Assembly (NCBI GenBank): GCA_016788115.1
Contig: JAEURR010000008.1
Location: forward strand, 186,001-250,000
Length of the DNA: 64,000 nucleotides
DNA from: Chthonomonas sp.
GTDB lineage: Bacteria > Armatimonadota > Fimbriimonadia > Fimbriimonadales > Fimbriimonadaceae
Reading direction: 5' to 3'
Part shown: in pieces, positions 3,662-18,470 of the stretch
Position numbering within the stretch: position 1 is the first letter of the stretch
Layout: the number at the start of each line of letters is the position of its first letter
The notes under the pieces: model-generated
Database searches by the model: none
Seen by the model: only the letters and a program-made list of their open reading frames with translations
What the model was told of the DNA's origin: nothing
Position numbers and translations under genes: made by a program

Positions 3662-4527
3662 GGTCTCTCCACGAATCTCCACTTCATGCGGTTGAAAACG
3701 GCGTAACCACCGATCAGGACCAGGAAGGAGATCGCGGATGCGACCAGCAGCAGCGGCACGTCAAGCGGCAAGTATGGCAACACCCGATCGCCAATCTTCG
3801 GATCAACCGGGGCGACGAGCACCTTGCGGAATGCGGTGCAGATCATCGCCACCGGGTTCAGGTGGTACAGCGTGTAGACCAGATCGGAGTACTTTGCGGG
3901 GACCGCGTTTGCATAGCGGACTTGCTCACTGAAGTACATCACTGGGCAAAAGAAGAACATGATGTACAGCGTCACACCCACCATGTACTTCACGTCCTCG
4001 AAGAACGTGTTCATCGCCGAGATGAAGAGCGCCAAGCCGGTGGTCAAAGCGAGGTGAATGATCAGCAGGAACGGCAAGTAAACCAGCGAGGGCTGGAAGG
4101 GCGTCCGGTCAGGGTGCCGCATCCAAACGGCGAGCAAGAACGCAAAGAACACCGTCAACGCAAGCAAGAAGTGTATGAAGTTGCTCAGGACGCTCGCAAG
4201 CGGTAGCACCTCGCGGGGGAAGTAGACCTTCTTCACGACCGGCAAGGCTGCCAAAACGGATTGCGAACTGTCCATGAGCGCCAACTGGAAGAACATATAC
4301 GGCAGGTACGCCGCGAAGACATACGCGCTGAAGCTCGGAGTCTGGTTGCCCAAAAAGTACCGAAAAACGACGTACATCGCTCCCATGGTCAGGAGTGGGT
4401 TCAGGAGCGACCACATGAACCCGAGAACCGAGTTCTTGTACCGGATGCGCAGTTCGCGCTCGACCAAGGTCAACAACAACTCACGAAAGCGCCAAAGCTC
4501 CCTGAGTTCATCCAGCATGGACGGCAT
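3658..4527 (-). CDS. ABC-2 type permease for polysaccharide export (Wzm-like)
   Basis: Inner-membrane permease of the ABC-2 class, 289 residues. The N-terminal RELLLTLVERELRIRYKNSVLGFMWSLLNP stretch (about residues 14-43, key R-E-L-R-x-R-Y-K and L-G-F-x-W-S-L-L-N-P) is the hallmark of Wzm/TagG proteins. About six hydrophobic segments follow, including FIHFLLALTVFFAFLLAVW and LLVASAISFLVLIGGYAVF. It lies 9 bases downstream of the oligopeptide-type ATPase gene and overlaps the Wzt-like ATPase gene. No glycosyltransferases are nearby, so the exported glycan cannot be named from context. Confidence 0.88.
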   Translation of the reverse strand: MPSMLDELRELWRFRELLLTLVERELRIRYKNSVLGFMWSLLNPLLTMGAMYVVFRYFLGNQTPSFSAYVFAAYLPYMFFQLALMDSSQSVLAALPVVKKVYFPREVLPLASVLSNFIHFLLALTVFFAFLLAVWMRHPDRTPFQPSLVYLPFLLIIHLALTTGLALFISAMNTFFEDVKYMVGVTLYIMFFFCPVMYFSEQVRYANAVPAKYSDLVYTLYHLNPVAMICTAFRKVLVAPVDPKIGDRVLPYLPLDVPLLLVASAISFLVLIGGYAVFNRMKWRFVERP

Positions 4528-4536
4528 GTTACCTGC

Positions 4537-5277
4537 TCACGCCAGTTCAAGCCGGGGCGCAGAGGTGAGCAGCTCCTGCGTATAGGGATGCTGCGGCCTC
4601 TCGAAGACGTCCTGCACGTCGCCCGACTCCACCACCACGCCTGCCTTCATCACGAAGACCCGCTGGGCCAAGTACCGAACGGTCACAAGGTCGTGCGAGA
4701 TGTACAGATACGCGCACCCAAGCTCCTGCTGCTGGTCCTTGAGCAAGTTCAGAATTTGGGCTTGAACGCTCAAGTCAAGCGCCGCCGTGGGCTCGTCGCA
4801 CAGAACGAGGGGTGGCTTGAGCGAAATAGCCCGTCCGATTGCCACGCGCTGACGCTGCCCGCCACTCAGTTGGTGTGGGTACCGATCTGCCATCTCGGCC
4901 GAGAGTCCGACGCTCGTGATCAGTGTATCAACATCAATCGGAGTGCCGGTGACGCTCGACGGCTCAAGCATTGAGCGCCTCACCGTCCAGCGCGGGTCGA
5001 GGCTGGCGTAAGGGTCTTGCCACACGACTCCGACGCGTGCGGCCTGCCTAGGCGAAACGCCCCGTACCTGCGCTCCCTGAATGTCGATCGTGCCGCTGGT
5101 GATCGGTTGGAGCCCCAAAATCGCCCGGATCAGCGTCGTCTTGCCGCTGCCCGACTCGCCCACGACCGCGACGCATTCGCCAGCCTCGACGGACAGGGAT
5201 ACGTCGTTCACCGCCCGCATGACTTGCGAACCGTTTACGTAGTCGACGCACAGGTTCTGAATGTCCAGGAGCGACAT
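4537..5277 (-). CDS. ABC transporter ATPase, oligopeptide/dipeptide (OppF/DppF) type
   Basis: Energises uptake of small peptides or related solutes in known relatives. The 246-residue protein has Walker A GESGSGKTT (about residues 40-48), the Q-loop in VWQDPYASLDPRWTV, the signature LSGGQRQRVAIGRA, Walker B LVLCDEPTAALD and the H-loop ISHD. The DPYASLDPR segment and the C-terminal HPYTQELL region are typical of the OppD/OppF group. No peptide permease genes adjoin it: it sits between nadK (1-base TAATG overlap) and a polysaccharide permease. A peptide-binding lipoprotein is encoded at 11821-13428 in another operon and is a possible partner (inference). Confidence 0.85.
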   Translation of the reverse strand: MSLLDIQNLCVDYVNGSQVMRAVNDVSLSVEAGECVAVVGESGSGKTTLIRAILGLQPITSGTIDIQGAQVRGVSPRQAARVGVVWQDPYASLDPRWTVRRSMLEPSSVTGTPIDVDTLITSVGLSAEMADRYPHQLSGGQRQRVAIGRAISLKPPLVLCDEPTAALDLSVQAQILNLLKDQQQELGCAYLYISHDLVTVRYLAQRVFVMKAGVVVESGDVQDVFERPQHPYTQELLTSAPRLELA

Positions 5278-6137
5278 TAATCCCCCACCGGCGGCTGCCG
5301 CCGCTCAAAGAGCAATCGGTCAGTAAGCTTGGCGAGAAAGTCTTCGTCATCGAGCGCGATCAGCCGCGTCGTCCGCTCCGACCGGCTGACGCTGACGGCG
5401 TCTCCGCTAAGCATCTGCAACCTACTCTGACCGTCGCATGAAAGGACCGCGTCGCCGCGAGTTTCGATCTGAATATGGACGTTGGAAGTCGGCGCGAGCA
5501 CAAGCGGACGGGTGCTCAGCGTGTGCGGCGTGACGGCCGTCAGAATCATGCACTGCAGGGTCGGCTCAACGATGGGTCCGCCCGCAGAGAGGTTGTAGCC
5601 CGTCGAGCCAGTCGGAGTGGCGACCAAGACGCCGTCCGCCGGATAAGAGTTCAGGAACCGGCCATTGACGGTTACCTCAAAATTCAGCATGCGAGCGGTT
5701 GCGGCGCGCTGGAGAACCGCTTCGTTGAGTGCATGCAACGTTGCGACCGATTTGCCGTGGCGCAAGAGCTCGACTTGGAGCATCATTCGCTCCTGAACCT
5801 TTGCTTGCCCATCGAAGAACAAGCTCAGCGCGGCACCAAGCTCGGAAGGTTGGCATTGGGTGACAAACCCAAAGCGCCCGAAGTAAACACCCAGGACTGG
5901 GGTGCCTCGGGCTGCGCACAGGTGCGAAGCACGAATGAGGGTGCCATCACCCCCGAAAGAAATCATCAGGTCGGCGTCGCCGAGTTCCTCAGTTGGCAGG
6001 GGTTGGGCATCGATCAACGCCGCCACATCGAGCTCAGAACCCACAAGAGCACGACGCCCCTTCAGGAAGTGCGTCGTGCTCCGTGCTGCCTCAACGGCAT
6101 CGTTTCTATGAACGTTAACGAGGATACTGATTCGCAA
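5277..6137 (-). CDS. nadK: NAD kinase
   Basis: Phosphorylates NAD to NADP with ATP or polyphosphate. The 286-residue protein shows the family motif GGDGT (residues 62-66), the N-E pair at about 138-139, TPTGSTGYNLSAGGP (about 174-188) and a C-terminal SCDGQ. The likely start is a TTG (5'-TTGCGAATC), because no ATG or GTG lies upstream before the TPR gene stop 11 bases away and the first strand MRISILVNVHR matches the family start. The stop and the next gene's ATG share one base (TAATG). Part of the purL to wzt-like operon. Catalytic residues are intact. Confidence 0.93.
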   Translation of the reverse strand: MRISILVNVHRNDAVEAARSTTHFLKGRRALVGSELDVAALIDAQPLPTEELGDADLMISFGGDGTLIRASHLCAARGTPVLGVYFGRFGFVTQCQPSELGAALSLFFDGQAKVQERMMLQVELLRHGKSVATLHALNEAVLQRAATARMLNFEVTVNGRFLNSYPADGVLVATPTGSTGYNLSAGGPIVEPTLQCMILTAVTPHTLSTRPLVLAPTSNVHIQIETRGDAVLSCDGQSRLQMLSGDAVSVSRSERTTRLIALDDEDFLAKLTDRLLFERRQPPVGD

Positions 6138-10587: not shown

Positions 10588-11817
10588 TCATGGCTTCGTG
10601 CGCGCAGTAGCTCGAACGAGGGATGGCGCAGCGCTAAACCGCTCGGCAAATGCTCGGCTAAAGTGGGCGGGGCTGGAGAATCCAACCATGCGCGCGACTT
10701 CCGTGACCGACAAGTCGAGGTCCACCAACAGTTTCTTGGACTTCTCCAGCCGAACAGACATGAGATAGCGCTGGAACGGTTTGCCGGTGTACTTCTTGAA
10801 AAGGAATCGGAAGTGTGAAGTGCTCAGGCCCAGCGATCGCGCAATGGTCTCGTCGCTCAGGTCCTTGCCGAAATTTCTATCAATGATGGCGAGCGCGCGC
10901 GCGATGGCCGCATCGGTCGGTGCATCCGGAACTTTCATCAAGTCGTTGGTCAGTTCTTCAGCCATGCTGCTCATCGCTTCGCAAATCTGACGCGGAGTCG
11001 TAAGCGCGTCGAGTTCGCGGGCCGCACGGAGAACGAACCGGTGCATTTGCCGTTCGGCATGCACCTCTAGCATCGCCGCGCAGATCACCGAAAGGAACGT
11101 GAGCGCAAGCCCTTTCGCCTCTTCCAATTCGGACATCGCTTCGATCCCACGGACCGCCTGTTGCAGCGCCATCCCAAACCGCACGCGGTCGCCGACGCGG
11201 ACGACGGCCGCGAGCTCATCCAGCGTCACACCGCGACTGGCGGCATGAAACGGACACCCGGGTGCGGGAACGGCCTCTACGAAGACATCGAAGATGCAGA
11301 AACTCGTATCGGTGCCACAGTCCACGAACCTGAGCTGGGGATTCTCGGTCGGCTCCGGGAGGTCAATCGACAGGACATCGACCCGGGCCGCCTTCCCTTC
11401 GACTTTGCAGGAGCCGATGGTCTGCAAAACGATTCCGTCGCCTGAGGAAAGGTGTACATGCCCCACGGTGTGCGCATCCAAGTAGTGCGTCCCGCAGACG
11501 AGCGGCAAACTCTGAGCCGAGTTTTCGCCTTGGATGATCAGGCTGGCACCAACGGTTCCAGGTGCCTCATCTTCCGTCGTTGCGTAGAGCCCAAAGATCC
11601 CCACGAAGTGGATTCGGTTAACAATGCCGGTCGAGACCGGGATTTCGATCATCAACTCGTTGGGCAGCTGCTTCGCGGCGTGGACGGGTCCGCGCCCGCC
11701 CTGACTCTGCCACGCATGCTTCGTAGAAAGTGGTTCTCCGTTCCACTCCATACCCGCCGCGAGGCTCGGACCGGAGCGCGGTCTCTCGAAGCGTCCAACC
11801 AGCATCAGGGGTCTCAT
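10588..11817 (-). CDS. AraC-family transcription regulator with a long N-terminal domain
   Basis: 409 residues. The C-terminal 100 residues form the AraC double helix-turn-helix: DETIARSLGLSTSHFRFLFKKYTGKPFQRYL (first, about residues 325-355) and SVTEVARMVGFSSPAHFSRAFAERF (second, about 375-400). The N-terminal part (about 50-200) is beta-rich (IHFVGIFGLY, ASLIIQGENSAQSLPLVCG, LRFVDCGTDTSFCIFDVFVEA) and may be a ligand-binding sandwich; I cannot name it. A GGAG 8 bases before the ATG, inside the end of the peptide-binding gene (3 bases between the genes), suggests co-translation. It may regulate the uptake genes beside it (inference). Confidence 0.85.
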   Translation of the reverse strand: MRPLMLVGRFERPRSGPSLAAGMEWNGEPLSTKHAWQSQGGRGPVHAAKQLPNELMIEIPVSTGIVNRIHFVGIFGLYATTEDEAPGTVGASLIIQGENSAQSLPLVCGTHYLDAHTVGHVHLSSGDGIVLQTIGSCKVEGKAARVDVLSIDLPEPTENPQLRFVDCGTDTSFCIFDVFVEAVPAPGCPFHAASRGVTLDELAAVVRVGDRVRFGMALQQAVRGIEAMSELEEAKGLALTFLSVICAAMLEVHAERQMHRFVLRAARELDALTTPRQICEAMSSMAEELTNDLMKVPDAPTDAAIARALAIIDRNFGKDLSDETIARSLGLSTSHFRFLFKKYTGKPFQRYLMSVRLEKSKKLLVDLDLSVTEVARMVGFSSPAHFSRAFAERFSAAPSLVRATARTKP

Positions 11818-11820
11818 AAG

Positions 11821-13428
11821 CTACTCCAGAGTGACGGTGGTGTGCGGAAGGTGGCCGAACAGCGAATGGCGCATCCCCTTGACTCGCGGTGCAATAAGTT
11901 CTGCATCGCGCTGGAAGTAGATCGGCATCCACGGCGCATCTTGAAGGATCAGGTCCTCCGCCCGGGCGTATTTGGCATCCCGTTCCGGCCCCAGCGGCAT
12001 GACGTCAGCTTCCGCGCAGAGCTTGTCCACTTCCGGGTTGCTGTAGCCCATCTTGTTCTCCGGGCCGTTCGTTGTGAGCAAGAGGGTCAAGAAGTTTTCG
12101 GGATCGAGATAGTCTGCGCCCCACCGCATATGATAGAGCTGGAGTTCGCCACGATCCTTCTTCTGCAAGTACGCACCCCACTCCATGCTGCGCAGATTCG
12201 TTTTCATACCCAAGTTCTTCTGAAGCTGGGCAGCCAAGTTCTCTGCGACCAGCCGGACATCGGGTCGCGAGTCCCGATAGTTGAACTCGATCGGGGGTAT
12301 CTTCGCGGGGTCGGGGTATCCGGCCTTGGCCAGGAGCGCCTTTGCCGCGGTCGGATCGAATGGTAAGACCGCAGCTTGGGCGCGCGCACCAGTAACGGCT
12401 GGCGGCAGGATCCCGTTTGCAAGTTGGTTGATGCCGCCCAGCGTCTCCTTCACAATCTGCTCGCGATCAACCGCCATTGCGAAGGCGCGCCGGACGTCTC
12501 GGTTCTTGAACGGCGGATAGGCGTTGCCAGCCATGCCCATGTACCAGATCGCGGCTCGGTCGAAGAACTGCAGCTGATCTTTGAACTTCGCGTCCGACTG
12601 CAGACCACTGACGTCGCCACGCTCCAACTGGACAAGGTCGAGCTCACCGTTTTTGTATTTGAGCAGGCGTGTCGCGGCGTCCTTGATAATCGGTCGCTCA
12701 ATTCGCGCGATCTTCGGGGCACCTAGGTAGTAGTCAGGGTTAGCTTCCAGGACGAAAAGCTGGTCAGTGGAGTACGACTTCGCCTTGTAAGGGCCAGTCC
12801 CGACCATGTCCGTGGTGCTCTTCATCACCGTGTTTGCGGGCACAGATTCCTTTGGCAAGACGGCCGCGGTGAGGTAAGTCAGCTTCGCAGGAAAGAATGG
12901 AATCGGGCGGAGGAGCGAGATAGCAACGGTCGCTGGGTCACGCACAACCACGCCGCTGATGGTGTCGCTCTTGCCTGCGAGGCGGTCTGCGACCCCGACG
13001 ATGTCGCTCAAGTAGGTACCCGCGACCGGAGAAGCCAGCGCTGGATTGCAGGCGCGCTCGAGACTCCACTTCACGTCTTCGGCGGTCACGCTGCGTCCGT
13101 TATGGAATTTGGCGTTCGCTCGGAGCTTAAACACGTACGTGCTGCCGTTGTTCTCGATCGTCCAGCTCTCCGCGAGACCAGGCTTGACTTGGTTGTCTTC
13201 TCCCCAAACGGTCAAACTCTCAAAGACCTGCTGCAGGAGGTCGATCGTATCACCATCTTCGACCGCATGGGGATCAAGCGTCGATGGGCTGGTGACGATG
13301 GGATACCGCAGCACCTGCTCCTTGCCCGCGGCAGTGCGCTTCGAAAATCCCTGCCCTCCGGAACCACCCGAGCAGCCTGCCAAGAGAAGCGCGCTTACCG
13401 CCAGAAGCCAAACAATCTTTCGCACCAT
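11821..13428 (-). CDS. peptide-type ABC transporter substrate-binding lipoprotein (SBP family 5)
   Basis: Captures peptides or related solutes outside the inner membrane for an ABC importer. About 535 residues starting at MVRKIVWLLAVSALLLAGCSGGSGG with lipobox L-L-A-G-C. The mature part has family 5 features: LRYPIVTSPSTLDPHAVEDGDT, VKPGLAESWTI, YVFKLRANAKFHNGRSVTAEDVKWSLER, and FAMAVDREQIV. The frame continues upstream to 13497, but that part lies inside recO and lacks signal features. It follows recO by 19 bases and precedes an AraC gene by 3. No permease genes are nearby; the DppF-like ATPase at 4537 is the only candidate partner in the window. Confidence 0.92.
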   Translation of the reverse strand: MVRKIVWLLAVSALLLAGCSGGSGGQGFSKRTAAGKEQVLRYPIVTSPSTLDPHAVEDGDTIDLLQQVFESLTVWGEDNQVKPGLAESWTIENNGSTYVFKLRANAKFHNGRSVTAEDVKWSLERACNPALASPVAGTYLSDIVGVADRLAGKSDTISGVVVRDPATVAISLLRPIPFFPAKLTYLTAAVLPKESVPANTVMKSTTDMVGTGPYKAKSYSTDQLFVLEANPDYYLGAPKIARIERPIIKDAATRLLKYKNGELDLVQLERGDVSGLQSDAKFKDQLQFFDRAAIWYMGMAGNAYPPFKNRDVRRAFAMAVDREQIVKETLGGINQLANGILPPAVTGARAQAAVLPFDPTAAKALLAKAGYPDPAKIPPIEFNYRDSRPDVRLVAENLAAQLQKNLGMKTNLRSMEWGAYLQKKDRGELQLYHMRWGADYLDPENFLTLLLTTNGPENKMGYSNPEVDKLCAEADVMPLGPERDAKYARAEDLILQDAPWMPIYFQRDAELIAPRVKGMRHSLFGHLPHTTVTLE

Positions 13429-13447
13429 GTGACGGATTCTACTTGAC

Positions 13448-14185
13448 TCAGCTGATGTTTGATACGATTGCGGCCTGAAGCGCGGGCAAGTCTCCATGCG
13501 CGTGGTGTCGAAGGAACGGCACCAGCACCCTCAGAGACTCTTCGCGACGTCTCATGCGACTGGGTGGCTCGGGTTGCTCTGCCAAGCGTTCTAAACCGAC
13601 CAGGACAAGATCGTCGGCGGTGAAAGCGTCCCGGTAACTTGGCGCAGAGGTGGCTGGGATGATCCCACCTGCCGTGGGACTCACCCATGCCGGAGTCAGG
13701 GTGTTGGGGGTTCCCGTCTCGGTGCACACTCGGAACGAAGGCAACACGCCTTCGATTTCGAGCGCCTGGAGGAACGACCAGAGGGCCGCCACGAGCGGGT
13801 CCTCGTGGGTCTCAATCCGATTGAGCGATTCAATCAGCAGATCAAACTCGCTCTCGTGGGAGTGGCCGCCCAGGGTGAAGGCGGCGTAGAGTTCGGCAAG
13901 AGCGAGGGCGAGTACAAGTCGGTCGTAGTCCGTGCGCAGTCCGCGAAACGCGGAACGAGGTTGCGCCTGAGTGACATAGGTCACCCGAGGTCCGGCAGCC
14001 AGATGAAATTCTGCAAGGACGAGCGGCTCTGAGACTCCTGCGAGCCGCGAACCGGGCTTGCGTGCCCCGCGCGCCACGACATCTTGTCTTCCCTGCTCCC
14101 GGGTCAAAAGTGAAAGGCGCCGGTCCGATTCGCCGCTATCGCCACGACGTAGGACCAGCGCCAGAGCGTTGCTTTCTTTAGCCAC
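13448..14185 (-). CDS. recO: DNA repair protein RecO
   Basis: Helps load RecA on SSB-coated DNA together with RecR. 245 residues with a GTG start (the frame begins MAKESNALALVLRRGD). The OB-fold N-terminus reads LRRGDSGESDRRLSLLTREQGRQDVVARGARKPGSRLAG, close to the family pattern of a-E-x-D-R-x-L-S-L-L-T-x-E-x-G and VARGARKP. A helical domain follows. The four-Cys zinc site found in some RecO proteins is not seen: only one cysteine (RVCTETG) is present. The start overlaps the upstream membrane-protein gene by 8 bases. Confidence 0.88.
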   Translation of the reverse strand: MAKESNALALVLRRGDSGESDRRLSLLTREQGRQDVVARGARKPGSRLAGVSEPLVLAEFHLAAGPRVTYVTQAQPRSAFRGLRTDYDRLVLALALAELYAAFTLGGHSHESEFDLLIESLNRIETHEDPLVAALWSFLQALEIEGVLPSFRVCTETGTPNTLTPAWVSPTAGGIIPATSAPSYRDAFTADDLVLVGLERLAEQPEPPSRMRRREESLRVLVPFLRHHAHGDLPALQAAIVSNIS

Positions 14186-14933
14186 CGAAGAGCTTGCTCA
14201 CACCATCCTTGGCAAACTCAATGAAGATAAAGAACATGCGGTCGATGACCAGCGCGAAACGGGCCATGACGGTTGAGCCGAAGATCGCTCCGAGACCCAC
14301 CATTAGTAGCCATCGGCCAGCGGTGTTGGCGTTCTTCATGAGCTTGTTCTTCACGTCGAAGCTGAAGAAGAAGTAGCTGAGGACGCACAAGATCGTGACG
14401 ACGAAGATCGCGTTGTTGATCGCTTGGCTGACGAAGATCTGCTGCGACGCTGCCGTCGCCTCCTCCGGGCTCATCTTCAACTTGTCCGGCACGAAGAACG
14501 TGCCCTGAGTCGGGAACACTGGCCGCATCGAGTCGTGGATCTGCTTGCCCCACGTATTCCAGAAGGTCTGAATCTGCTGACCTGCCCAGAGACCTAGAAT
14601 GATGCCGATGGGAATGCGGCTCATCCAGTTATGCTTCTTGCTAAAGACCATGTAGGCCATGAGCCCAAACGGCAGCATCAGCATGTACAGGAAGTAGCCG
14701 GGCGTCCCTTGGGAACCAGTGGTTGCGTCAGGTACCGATCCCACCATGCGAAGCCACCACGGCTCGTACAACGTCTCTTTCCACACCGCGACAATGGTGA
14801 ACCCAGCCGCGAGCCCAAGGAAGACGTGCTCCACGAACCGATAGAATTTGTTCTCTCGGTAGAGAACGCTATAGAGTCCGACCGTCGCGATGACGCCAGC
14901 GAGCAGTTTCCATGCGAGGAATTTTTCGTTCAC
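14178..14933 (-). CDS. conserved polytopic membrane protein, unknown function (membrane block gene 5)
   Basis: 251 residues, GTG start overlapping the previous stop as GTGA. Around six hydrophobic segments: LAWKLLAGVIATVGLYSVLY, HVFLGLAAGFTIVAVW, GYFLYMLMLPFGLMAYMVF, IPIGIILGLWAGQQI, NAIFVVTILCVLSYFFF and WLLMVGLGAIFGSTVMARFALVI. A soluble loop rich in charge (about residues 140-175) lies between the fourth and fifth. No catalytic motif was recognised. The last gene of a five-gene coupled block (14178-18055), followed at once by recO. The LGLAAGFTIVAVW and GAIFGSTVMARFALVIDR segments look conserved in character and would be good search seeds. Confidence 0.75.
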   Translation of the reverse strand: MNEKFLAWKLLAGVIATVGLYSVLYRENKFYRFVEHVFLGLAAGFTIVAVWKETLYEPWWLRMVGSVPDATTGSQGTPGYFLYMLMLPFGLMAYMVFSKKHNWMSRIPIGIILGLWAGQQIQTFWNTWGKQIHDSMRPVFPTQGTFFVPDKLKMSPEEATAASQQIFVSQAINNAIFVVTILCVLSYFFFSFDVKNKLMKNANTAGRWLLMVGLGAIFGSTVMARFALVIDRMFFIFIEFAKDGVSKLFGG

Positions 14934-15901
14934 TTGCCACGCCCCTTAAACTTGGATGCAATGATGCTGGCGTTCCCCGCAAGCACTGCGAGAATCATCA
15001 GGGTCAAAGCCGCATGAAGCGCCAAGTAGTACTTGGCACCGCGGTCGTAGTTCGTCAATCCCGTGAAGGGTTCCACTTGGACATCGCGGAAGTTAGTGCT
15101 TTCTATCCGCTTGTCATCGGGGCCACTCTTCGGAACGGACGTTCCTCGCACTCCTGACTCCATCATCCGCTCAATATCGTAGACGCCCTTGAGCCCGATG
15201 CTCAATCCGACGAGCTGTCCCGATGCGTAATACTGTTGCATCTGGGGGCCGATGACGCCGGTGCACATGAGTGCGAGCGGAACCGAACCGCCCACACGGG
15301 CGATCAAGAAGTCCATCGTTCCCGAGGCGGTGATGTTCACTAGCAGCTGAAAGTCACCGATCCTCTTCACCTTGGCGAGCACCGGAGATCCCCAGATGTC
15401 CGCCGACTGTCCGTCGGGCCGACGATTTTGTTTGTCCTTGAACGCGGCGCGGATGTTGCCCTTCATGCTCGTAGCGAACGCCCCCGATGGGTCCGCGTAG
15501 TACCCCGCGTCAACCCAGTCCTCGAACAACTTGTACCGTTCGGCTTCGGGCTGTTCCAAATTGATTCGGTTGATGACGTTGCGAGCCACCTGCGGTGCCT
15601 GAGCGTCGCCCACTGCGTACAGTAGGAACTTCACCTTGCGTCGCATGATGATTCGCATCAGAGCTTCAAACTGCCCCATACTCTCGCCGCGTGAAGAGTT
15701 CGTCCAGTCAGACTGAATCAGGATCGGCTTGGACGGATCCAGCTGGCTCAAAGCCAGGAACATGTCAACGGACTGGTCCTCGGGCTTGCTTGGCACGTCC
15801 GCCTTGAAGAACAAGGTCACGGTGCAGACCAGGATCAGGAGCAGGTACAGCGTCTGCGAGCTTAATTTTGAGATTCTATCGACAAAGGAACGTTCTGCCA
15901 T
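14930..15901 (-). CDS. membrane-anchored protein with a large soluble domain, unknown (membrane block gene 4)
   Basis: 323 residues: a basic N-terminus, one membrane helix (about residues 18-33, LYLLLILVCTVTLFF), a soluble domain of about 250 residues and a second helix near 290-308 (ALHAALTLMILAVLAG) followed by a basic tail. By the positive-inside rule both ends are cytoplasmic and the domain faces outward. The domain alternates beta strands and helices (PILIQSDWTNSSRGESMGQ, KVKFLLYAVGDAQAPQVA, PVLAKVKRIGDFQLLVNITA, PLALMCTGVIGPQMQQYY), suggesting a Rossmann-like fold. I do not recognise a family. Two bases separate it from the gene upstream. Confidence 0.75.
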   Translation of the reverse strand: MAERSFVDRISKLSSQTLYLLLILVCTVTLFFKADVPSKPEDQSVDMFLALSQLDPSKPILIQSDWTNSSRGESMGQFEALMRIIMRRKVKFLLYAVGDAQAPQVARNVINRINLEQPEAERYKLFEDWVDAGYYADPSGAFATSMKGNIRAAFKDKQNRRPDGQSADIWGSPVLAKVKRIGDFQLLVNITASGTMDFLIARVGGSVPLALMCTGVIGPQMQQYYASGQLVGLSIGLKGVYDIERMMESGVRGTSVPKSGPDDKRIESTNFRDVQVEPFTGLTNYDRGAKYYLALHAALTLMILAVLAGNASIIASKFKGRGK

Positions 15902-15903
15902 TG

Positions 15904-16809
15904 TTAAGCCACCCCGCTCTTTTCAAGTCCAAGCCACAGGCGAATGCCCATCGCAAGTGCGCCGATCGCAATCCCGAACTCCATGGCACGCAGTGACGGA
16001 ACCTGGAGCGTGTTCTTGATCCAGCTCGAGACCTCCTCCAATTTGAAGTTCGCAGCGAAGCTGCTCGAATGAGAGATCTGATCGATCAAGCTGCTGCTTT
16101 GGTATTGCAGCGCTCCCATCATGTTCAGCATCATGATCAGCGCCACCGATAGCATGATCGTAGCCTCGACCGACCGGATTCTGAAGGCCCTGTACGCCGC
16201 TGACAGGATGTAGAACGCGATGATCGAGAACATTGCTGCGTCCATCTGCTGAAGCAGCCCGTCGAAGAGGAAGTCAAATCCATACTGTGCGGTGCGCCAG
16301 TTTTCCGGGTTGGTGAAGTCCACGTCCTTCATCAGGAACTTTTGTTGCCTCCAGTCCCAATAGCCGAAGAATGCCATCAGCACCATCGATGCAAGAAGCG
16401 TGATGCTGAACACACTGTCCTTGTGCTTCTTGATGATCCGCCCGAGGTGCACGCGCAGCAGCGAGTACACGCCCAGGCCCAAAAGGAATGCGGGAACGAT
16501 CGTCCCCAGGTCCTTGAAGAAGGGCGTCGCGTCCTCTAGGAAGAAGCTGACCTTCTCAACACCGTTTCTTGGAAGCTCGAATGGTTGTCGGGCCTGGTGG
16601 TTGGGCCAAACCAGCAGCATCACATAGAACACTCCAGAGATAAACGTACACACGCCGATCACGAACTTCCGACCGCGGGTCGGGACGTTCATCGTGGCGA
16701 CGAAGATCAGAATCGCCAGCACGGCGGAGACGATTAGCGCGGTGATGAGCTCGCGCGAGCCGCTCGGACGATAGAAGAAGTCAGGGCTCAATTGAGCTAG
16801 CAAGTTCAT
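15904..16809 (-). CDS. conserved polytopic membrane protein, unknown function (membrane block gene 3)
   Basis: 301 residues with about seven hydrophobic segments, including ELITALIVSAVLAILIFVATM, FVIGVCTFISGVFYVMLLVW, IVPAFLLGLGVYSLLRV, SITLLASMVLMAFFGYWDW, FSIIAFYILSAAYRAF and a run near 215-235 (IMLSVALIMMLNMMGAL). A polar stretch with WRQQKFLMKDVDFTNPENW (about residues 153-171) lies between membrane parts. Its ATG overlaps the preceding stop (ATGA). No recognised family. Size, topology and coupling resemble gene 5 of the block, and the two may form one membrane complex (inference). Confidence 0.75.
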   Translation of the reverse strand: MNLLAQLSPDFFYRPSGSRELITALIVSAVLAILIFVATMNVPTRGRKFVIGVCTFISGVFYVMLLVWPNHQARQPFELPRNGVEKVSFFLEDATPFFKDLGTIVPAFLLGLGVYSLLRVHLGRIIKKHKDSVFSITLLASMVLMAFFGYWDWRQQKFLMKDVDFTNPENWRTAQYGFDFLFDGLLQQMDAAMFSIIAFYILSAAYRAFRIRSVEATIMLSVALIMMLNMMGALQYQSSSLIDQISHSSSFAANFKLEEVSSWIKNTLQVPSLRAMEFGIAIGALAMGIRLWLGLEKSGVA

Positions 16810-17750
16810 TCACCACCTCCGCCGTATGTCGGCTCAGGCTCATCCGGCAGTTGCTCCCGCTTTTCACGCGGTGCTGCAGGTTTCTCCGGCTCAGGGGGCG
16901 ACGGGTTTGTGAAGAGTCGTTTCATGGCGAGCATATCTCCTCGCCGAGGACCCATCTTTTCCGCCGGGACCTCTTTACCTTTCTCCCATTTCATGTCCGT
17001 CTGCGTGGTGTACTGGTACGAGTTTGTCGCGAAGCCAATGAGGATGAACGAGGCGATCATGATCTTGCACCAGTCCTGCCCGATCAGGCTTCCGACCAAG
17101 ATTGGCTCGCGACTCAGGTAAGCGGACGCCGCGTAATACTCGTCGCCGATGAGCACGTAGTCGCACGCAGCGACGAAGAACGGCGTCTGGGTCGTCTGCG
17201 TCGAGCCCGCCACCTGGATTGCTCCCTCGGCGTTGGCCGATTCGGCGAAGATCAACGACTCGGCGTAGAACTCACCCAGAAAGAACGTCGCCGCTGCCTT
17301 CTCACGGCGGATGATGCCGGCCACACCGGCCGCAAAAGCGAACTGGCGATCGCTGACGAACTGGACCGAGTCCACGTCGTACCGATCAATGATCCCTTCC
17401 TTTTGGTAGACGTCCCGGATCGTTTCCTGCGCGACCGTATAGACCGCGGCGTCCGCCACACACAGCTTGATGGGGGTCGCGAACTTCGCAGCCGTCTGTG
17501 TGACCTTGGCGAAAATGTTGATCGCTTGGACGGAGATGGCGTTCAACGTACCGATTCCAGGGACCATCAAGACGGGGCGACCCATTTCGGTCGCGCGTCC
17601 GATCGCCTCGTCAATGGCGTTGAGGCCGGGGATACGACGAATGAAGAGATTGCCAGAGGAGGCCTTGGCACGCTGGATGTTATAGACGATGAATGCCACC
17701 ATCGACAGCGTGACCAATATGCCGAACCAGCCGGTTCCGTAATATTGCAT
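16806..17750 (-). CDS. membrane protein of the DUF6754 kind (membrane block gene 2)
   Basis: 314 residues. A first membrane helix (about 8-24, WFGILVTLSMVAFIVYNI) is followed by a basic segment and a roughly 200-residue alpha/beta domain (RPVLMVPGIGTLNAISVQA, TPIKLCVADAAVYTVAQET, YDVDSVQFVSDRQFAFAAG, FFVAACDYVLIGDEYYAAS), then a second helix (about 238-255) and a charged Pro-rich tail ending EPTYGGGGE. From memory this resembles proteins annotated only as DUF6754; that should be checked. The positive-inside rule puts the domain in the cytoplasm, opposite to gene 4. TAATG overlap with the upstream gene. Confidence 0.75.
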   Translation of the reverse strand: MQYYGTGWFGILVTLSMVAFIVYNIQRAKASSGNLFIRRIPGLNAIDEAIGRATEMGRPVLMVPGIGTLNAISVQAINIFAKVTQTAAKFATPIKLCVADAAVYTVAQETIRDVYQKEGIIDRYDVDSVQFVSDRQFAFAAGVAGIIRREKAAATFFLGEFYAESLIFAESANAEGAIQVAGSTQTTQTPFFVAACDYVLIGDEYYAASAYLSREPILVGSLIGQDWCKIMIASFILIGFATNSYQYTTQTDMKWEKGKEVPAEKMGPRRGDMLAMKRLFTNPSPPEPEKPAAPREKREQLPDEPEPTYGGGGE

Positions 17751-18055
17751 TAGGCAGATTGCTCCTGATTGGAGGAAGAACGACGAGCATCCAAAAGATC
17801 GATCAACCGGTTCCAGTTCTCACGATTGGACATAAGCCGGGAAACGTCATTGACGTTATCGAAGCCGACAAACGGGATGATGAACGGTGAGAGAGCGATC
17901 ATGGCGTGTGCGCCAACGTTTCCGAGAGGCTTGTGCATCTCAAGGAACAGGATCGCCGGAGTCTCCATCCGCTTGGCGGCGATCTTCGACGCCAACTTCT
18001 GCAGAAGCTCCTCGCTCGCCTCCTCGCTGAGGCTCTCGCTCCAAAATTCGTTCAT
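17750..18055 (-). CDS. small conserved protein of unknown function (membrane block gene 1)
   Basis: About 101 residues from the ATG at 18055, which has a strong ribosome-binding site (GGAGG four bases upstream). An amphipathic N-terminus (NEFWSESLSEEASEELLQKLASKI) precedes a conserved-looking core, TPAILFLEMHKPLGNVGAHAM, then LSPFIIPFVGFDNVNDVSRL and a C-terminal helix NRENWNRLIDLLDARR. Similar small proteins with FLExHKPL are known to me only as hypotheticals. No clear membrane helix beyond the moderately hydrophobic centre. It starts inside the 3' part of the PH-like gene and is TAATG-coupled to the DUF6754-like gene. Confidence 0.75.
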   Translation of the reverse strand: MNEFWSESLSEEASEELLQKLASKIAAKRMETPAILFLEMHKPLGNVGAHAMIALSPFIIPFVGFDNVNDVSRLMSNRENWNRLIDLLDARRSSSNQEQSA

Positions 18056-18470
18056 CTTCCCTCCAGAGTGAGCGGATTTTAGCCAATACTTCCGCTTCGT
18101 TGCTTGCATACCTCAGGTACACCCCTCGAAACGCACCTAAAGCACTCGCCTTGGGAAGCGGCGAAAGCCGCACTCCGTCCGCATCTTGAATCATCCTCTT
18201 AACGCTGGGCCACTCCACCTGTGTCACGGATAGACCGCAGCGAGCAGAGGCACCCTTGTCATCAAGACGGTAGTGAGTCGCAAAAAAGAGTTCGGCAACA
18301 GCGAGAATCAGCATAATTGGACCGATCACGGCCATGATCACCGAGCTGAGAAACACGAGTGCAAACGCGCCGCAGACCGCCGCGAGCACAGCCACCAGCG
18401 TACGCTTGCCTGGCATCGTGTTGCCGAGACTTATCGACCAAGCCAGCGGCGCGGGTTCGCCTAGCGCCAT
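17940..18470 (-). CDS. membrane protein with bacterial PH-like domain, long 3' overlap
   Basis: 176 residues as an open frame. Two hydrophobic segments (TLVAVLAAVCGAFALVFLSSVIMAVIGPIMLILAVAELFF, about 23-63) precede a PH-like strand pattern: HYRLDDKGASARCGLSVTQVEW, ADGVRLSPLPKASALGAFRGVYLRYASNEAEVLAKI, typical of short bPH proteins that read ...LSPLP...FRGVYLR. The frame then runs about 50 residues further (Arg/Glu/Gly-rich, unlike any domain), the last 38 inside the next gene on the same strand. The start overlaps the prs stop by 10 bases. Either a genuine long overlap or a frameshift near 18070. Function unknown. Confidence 0.65.
   Translation of the reverse strand: MALGEPAPLAWSISLGNTMPGKRTLVAVLAAVCGAFALVFLSSVIMAVIGPIMLILAVAELFFATHYRLDDKGASARCGLSVTQVEWPSVKRMIQDADGVRLSPLPKASALGAFRGVYLRYASNEAEVLAKIRSLWREDERILEREPQRGGERGASAEVGVEDRRQADGDSGDPVP

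Follow-up and report, generated by a model that had tools for sequence, protein, structure and literature searches.

What do the tightly packed minus-strand genes between glmU-prs and recO of a Chthonomonas genome encode, and do their products act together? An earlier note on this DNA had described five of them as one membrane complex. We analyzed the window, which is the whole stretch of 64,000 nucleotides, and compared its genes with relatives in other genomes.

Layout and conservation of the gene set

The run of genes in the window reads glmU-prs-PH-A-B-C-D-E-recO, with these features:

17940 to 18416, minus strand: gene PH, an ORF with its ATG at 18416; ~158 aa, N-terminal membrane segment and a small domain
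17750 to 18055, minus strand: gene A, small, 101 aa; one moderately hydrophobic stretch at about residues 44-63
16806 to 17750, minus strand: gene B, 314 aa, DUF6754 (PF20539); TM helix, predicted cytosolic Rossmann-like domain, TM helix
17109 to 17636, minus strand: Rossmann-like domain of B, residues 39-214, the range of the model aligned to CODH epsilon
15904 to 16809, minus strand: gene C, 301 aa, polytopic; ~7 membrane segments predicted by hydropathy scan only
14930 to 15901, minus strand: gene D, 323 aa; TM helix, predicted extracytoplasmic Rossmann-like domain, TM helix
15161 to 15787, minus strand: Rossmann-like domain of D, residues 39-247, the range of the model aligned to CODH epsilon
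14178 to 14933, minus strand: gene E, 251 aa, polytopic; ~5-6 membrane segments predicted by hydropathy scan only

All five genes of the earlier note, A to E, are present, with ORFs and tight junctions exactly as it gave them: read from the sequence, A meets B at TAATG, B meets C at ATGA, C and D are separated by a 2-base gap, and D meets E at GTGA. The five genes are real; however, the unit starts one gene earlier, with the conserved PH, whose ATG lies 44 bases past the prs stop and which overlaps A by 116 bases. PH homologues precede A at the same place at many Armatimonadota loci and in some other phyla. At the far end, E and the recO ORF (start 14185) share 8 bases, and this recO neighborhood is local, being found at 13 of the compared loci. 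After recO come genes for an AraC-type regulator and for an oligopeptide-binding lipoprotein (window 10588-13497), and 9-10 related loci have homologues of both close to the set.

The 314-residue B protein had been called DUF6754-like, which proved right: it matched PF20539 with an E value of 8.7e-90 and 300.8 bits, against a curated Pfam cut-off of 27, over 241 of 257 positions. A Pfam search with A, C, D, and E found no family over cut-off, and an NCBIfam search found none for any of A-E. Profile comparison gave no signal for C and E as paralogues, and a plasmid search with B matched nothing. PF20539 is on record as a domain of unknown function, without partners, topology, or mechanism in the sources searched. 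DUF6754 and PF13941, the family of a linked ATPase (see below), are named in no paper of the open-licence literature searched; the main text of the FESNov catalogue paper (PMC10849945) names none of the taxa at issue.

The nearest named relatives of the window's B are from Fimbriimonadaceae, and the genome it comes from, 2.4 Mb in 9 contigs, clusters with Armatimonadota, in which B is present in 252 of 291 genomes, mostly as a single copy. When named genomes were scanned with a pattern, at least 578 stretches proved to encode relatives of B; 80 were retained. These 80 came from Armatimonadota, WOR-3/Stahlbacteria, Zixibacteria, Eisenbacteria, Poribacteria, Latescibacterota, Edwardsbacteria, Coatesbacteria, Fermentibacteria, Effluviviacota, and Planctomycetota. 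Most of the compared genomes were assembled from metagenomes, and some bins carry the wrong label; for example, one filed under Actinomycetota (L075) groups with Armatimonadota.

The earlier note had asked whether the genes are usually apart, and they are not. In profile searches covering more than ten phyla, C-D-E lay downstream of B, in order and on the same strand, for 96 of the 100 B copies with sufficient flanking sequence. The same order was found by tblastn in distant Armatimonadota families at ~22-67% identity, arguing that the set is not a chance run. There were four exceptions; those at L037 and L129 look like ORF-start artefacts, and at L037 tblastn located C between B and D. These analyses show that B-C-D-E is one conserved genetic module.

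Two loci were unusual. At L047, a 374-aa ORF (3858-4982, minus strand) that appears pectate-lyase-like by eye lies between C and D, a rare break in the module. At L036, some 250 extra residues separate TM2 from TM3 in the C homologue (4315-5925, minus strand); this insertion looks by eye like a glycosidase-type beta-propeller, has no Pfam match, and is likely extracytoplasmic. We considered and rejected a C-D fusion here, as this is C carrying an inserted domain. No B copy in the tree has diverged further than the one beside it, and neither D nor E follows.

Predicted folds and topology

We modeled B and D by AlphaFold2 (B: pLDDT 87.7, reaching 92-98 over the domain, and pTM 0.77; D: pLDDT 84.5, pTM 0.83). 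Both models share a common order of TM helix, helix, six alternating strand-helix units, and a long TM helix, or TM-(beta-alpha)6-TM. The B model aligned with Sir2 (Z 11.5, 3.5 Å, 139 residues), CODH epsilon (Z 9.8, 3.1 Å, 136 residues), and transhydrogenase dIII (Z 9.7), and the D model with CODH epsilon (Z 8.8, 3.2 Å, 141 residues); the same CODH epsilon chain, 9c0r_C, aligns to residues 39-214 of B and 39-247 of D. These nearest solved neighbors have Rossmann-like folds, a common kind of fold; however, they are soluble domains with 5-14% identity, whereas the domains of B and D are set between two TM helices. The likeness to NAD/FAD-type proteins indicates no function. Foldseek with B or D returned nothing under 1e-3, and an hhalign comparison of the B and D sequence profiles was not significant.

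Positive charges follow TM1 in B and precede it in D, a placement suggesting that the domain of B faces inside and that of D outside. This agrees with the orientation predicted in the earlier note, and the hydropathy scan upheld its two polytopic proteins, C and E. Its description of the domains as mirror images stands insofar as there are paired alpha/beta domains with one fold order, predicted on both faces, but an inverted repeat is not proven. An outside N-terminus of B would also fit the N-terminal extensions that B carries in other phyla, some with weak fn3 matches. The cytosolic domain is the best-conserved part of B and has many invariant residues. Invariant positions close to the ends of strands (among them G65, Q136, G159, E164, Q188, D197, and E204) may form something resembling a ligand-binding site.

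MutL and BSH partners and their joint loss

In its inventory of partners, the earlier note fell short by PH and by two soluble proteins, a MutL-like ATPase and BSH, a barrel-sandwich protein. In several phyla (L046, L103, L119, and L122), the operon order is PH-A-MutL-BSH-B-C-D-E, and L092 begins likewise. MutL is a MutL/GlmL-like ASKHA ATPase of ~600 aa (PF13941, E below 1e-125), and the partner encoded outside the window scored 437.3 bits against a Pfam cut-off of 27. Its three ATPase motifs, ATDCGSTTTK, DIGGATTD, and GSGG, are kept at ~95% or more at most positions (24 sequences from 23 loci). BSH is ~375 aa long, and its homologues weakly match NQRA_N (1.5e-5, barely over cut-off), RnfC_N, and Biotin_lipoyl; the BSH of the window's genome had no match at all in a Pfam search. 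None of B, D, MutL, and BSH had a credible relative among PDB sequences.

Relatives of BSH occur in 44 B loci, among them almost every locus from the deep Armatimonadota families, and relatives of MutL in 17. MutL adjoins BSH in many Armatimonadota, and in G235 the pair lies beside a B-C-D-E set. Both partners are single-copy in the window's genome and lie on other contigs (58% and 48% identity to the L122 proteins), so that the system is spread there across three or more places. The operon neighbors in other phyla tie B-C-D-E to MutL and BSH and, overall, show that B-C-D-E belongs with PH, A, the MutL/GlmL-like ATPase, and BSH. In several phyla, BCDE occurs in tandem, in two or three copies (seven loci). 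The B copies fall into separate, well-supported clades, so the tandem modules are ancient paralogues; a single MutL/BSH pair accompanies them where these genes are seen.

Other features of these loci were observed. BSH is followed directly by an OmpR-type response regulator at L135 (6272-8061, minus strand) and at seven other loci; the two genes share 4 bases in the window's genome, and at some loci a PAS histidine kinase comes next. In some phyla, glycine-cleavage genes lie upstream of the operon (L122 and L092); on its downstream side, L122, L098, and L119 carry a lipoate-ligase-like gene and one for a TonB-dependent receptor. We rejected a biotin/lipoate carrier role for BSH, which has no conserved lysine at the hairpin where one is expected. 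A role of MutL as a B12-mutase helper was not supported in the genomes tested, in which no mutase link was found: Met_asp_mut_E (glutamate mutase) occurred in 0 of 25 genomes and MM_CoA_mutase in three of 25, among them the window's genome, and the latter was absent from 11 MutL-carrying genomes. The methylmalonyl-CoA mutase genes of the window's genome (contig C4, 20477-23739) are absent from most of the tested relatives.

Alongside B, BSH was detected in 265 and MutL in 256 of the 291 Armatimonadota genomes, and all three were missing from the same 20. Genomes discordant for the three were mostly incomplete assemblies. Pairwise Fisher tests gave p values of 3e-15, 2e-15, and 3e-22, which are inflated because the lineages are not independent and the joint absence stems from about seven of them, including those of G133 and G134, both 1.5-Mb genomes, and several genera in family f13 that have relatives retaining the system. 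Despite this inflation, the loss pattern recurs across lineages. D was absent in 19 of the 20 triple-loss genomes and present in 10 of 10 controls. A conserved system is well supported.

We also tested whether this system relates to other envelope components. Omp85 was present in 30 of 30 genomes tested, whether or not they carried the system; having an outer membrane therefore does not depend on the system, and a genome that loses the system does not thereby lose that membrane. A role as a replacement for ExbBD/TolQR was rejected, as there was no mutual exclusion with ExbD/TolR: ExbD and B occur together in seven genomes, and other B genomes have no ExbD. An ExbD/TolR homologue was absent from the window's genome and from six of seven same-family genomes tested, and Omp85 was present where checked.

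Possible modes of action and nearest known systems

We propose, at a probability of roughly 0.45, that MutL and BSH drive an envelope-spanning machine built on B-C-D-E, PH, and A. On the cytosolic side, MutL would bind and hydrolyze ATP and would act together with BSH upon the Rossmann-like domain of B. The resulting movement would travel by way of C and E, both polytopic, to the Rossmann-like domain that D is predicted to hold outside the cytoplasm, and would drive transport across the envelope or remodeling within it. The ancient BCDE paralogues beside single MutL and BSH genes suggest a shared drive unit with exchangeable modules, and it would probably be the membrane module BCDE that sets what is handled. 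More tentatively, and with greater doubt than we attach to the machine itself, this could be a new class of ATP-driven membrane machine, in which a MutL-type ASKHA ATPase and a barrel-sandwich adaptor energize exchangeable four-protein modules, each with a Rossmann-like domain on either membrane face, in Armatimonadota and many uncultured phyla. Two points count against this reading: we know of no ASKHA ATPase that drives a transporter directly, and the coupling of BSH to a response regulator in Fimbriimonadales would suit signaling.

That coupling makes signal transduction the main rival, which we consider unlikely, slightly more so than the new class. Here, D and the extra outer domains found elsewhere on B and C would sense the state of the envelope, and B, BSH, and MutL would relay it inside, ending in Fimbriimonadales at the BSH-coupled response regulator. 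The 4-base overlap of BSH with the OmpR-type regulator, their adjacency at seven related loci, some of which also have a histidine kinase, the N-terminal extensions of B in other phyla (some with weak fn3 matches), and the large outer domain inserted into C at L036 all speak for such a relay. However, the response regulator does not adjoin the set in other phyla, the cytosolic domain of B, its best-conserved part, is richer in invariant residues than would be expected of a pure relay, and the MutL ATPase would be left with no obvious role.

An ion- or redox-coupled pump of the RNF/NQR kind would likewise find no place for MutL. BSH would be its NqrA/RnfC-like peripheral subunit, C and E its membrane subunits, and D a subunit with an outer soluble domain, a comparable layout that is joined by the weak NQRA_N (1.5e-5) and RnfC_N matches of BSH and by the resemblance of the B and D folds to nucleotide-binding proteins. 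Yet the consensus sequences of B, C, D, and E contain neither conserved Cys clusters for Fe-S centers nor a flavin-attachment motif, and these four proteins match no RNF/NQR family in Pfam or NCBIfam; we regard such a pump as improbable. We give equally little credence to co-transcribed genes with separate functions being kept together by operon packing. The window genes do sit within a housekeeping operon (glmU-prs-recO), but their order survives across phyla in unrelated neighborhoods and in tandem copies, and components encoded at separate loci disappear together.

A component near-universal in Armatimonadota, and also present in at least ten other phyla, has had neither a name nor an assigned function. 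Through our analyses, what was a domain of unknown function becomes part of a delimited system of some eight proteins, one of them a predicted ATPase, for which a topology is predicted and which has paralogous modules and natural loss lineages; this makes the DUF6754 set testable. If the ATPase does drive the membrane part, this would be a membrane machine of a kind not described before.

Among known systems, the linked ATPase is over the Pfam cut-off for the MutL/GlmL family (PF13941), which comprises B12-mutase accessory proteins, and keeps the ASKHA motifs. It falls below the NCBI cut-offs for the mutase accessory proteins GlmL and Or-4 (231.7 versus 475 bits for GlmL; 215.5 versus 600 bits) and, at 179.3 bits, below the 204-bit cut-off of the GlmL family. 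Unlike those proteins, it is found in genomes without glutamate mutase and mostly without methylmalonyl-CoA mutase, and it is tied to membrane genes. BSH homologues are akin to the N-terminal barrel-sandwich proteins of NqrA/RnfC through the weak NQRA_N and RnfC_N matches, but no redox subunits lie near BSH. The PilM-PilN-PilO inner-membrane complex of type IV pili combines a cytosolic ASKHA protein with membrane proteins bearing outer alpha/beta domains; its likeness to our set is an analogy only, and no common sequence family was found.
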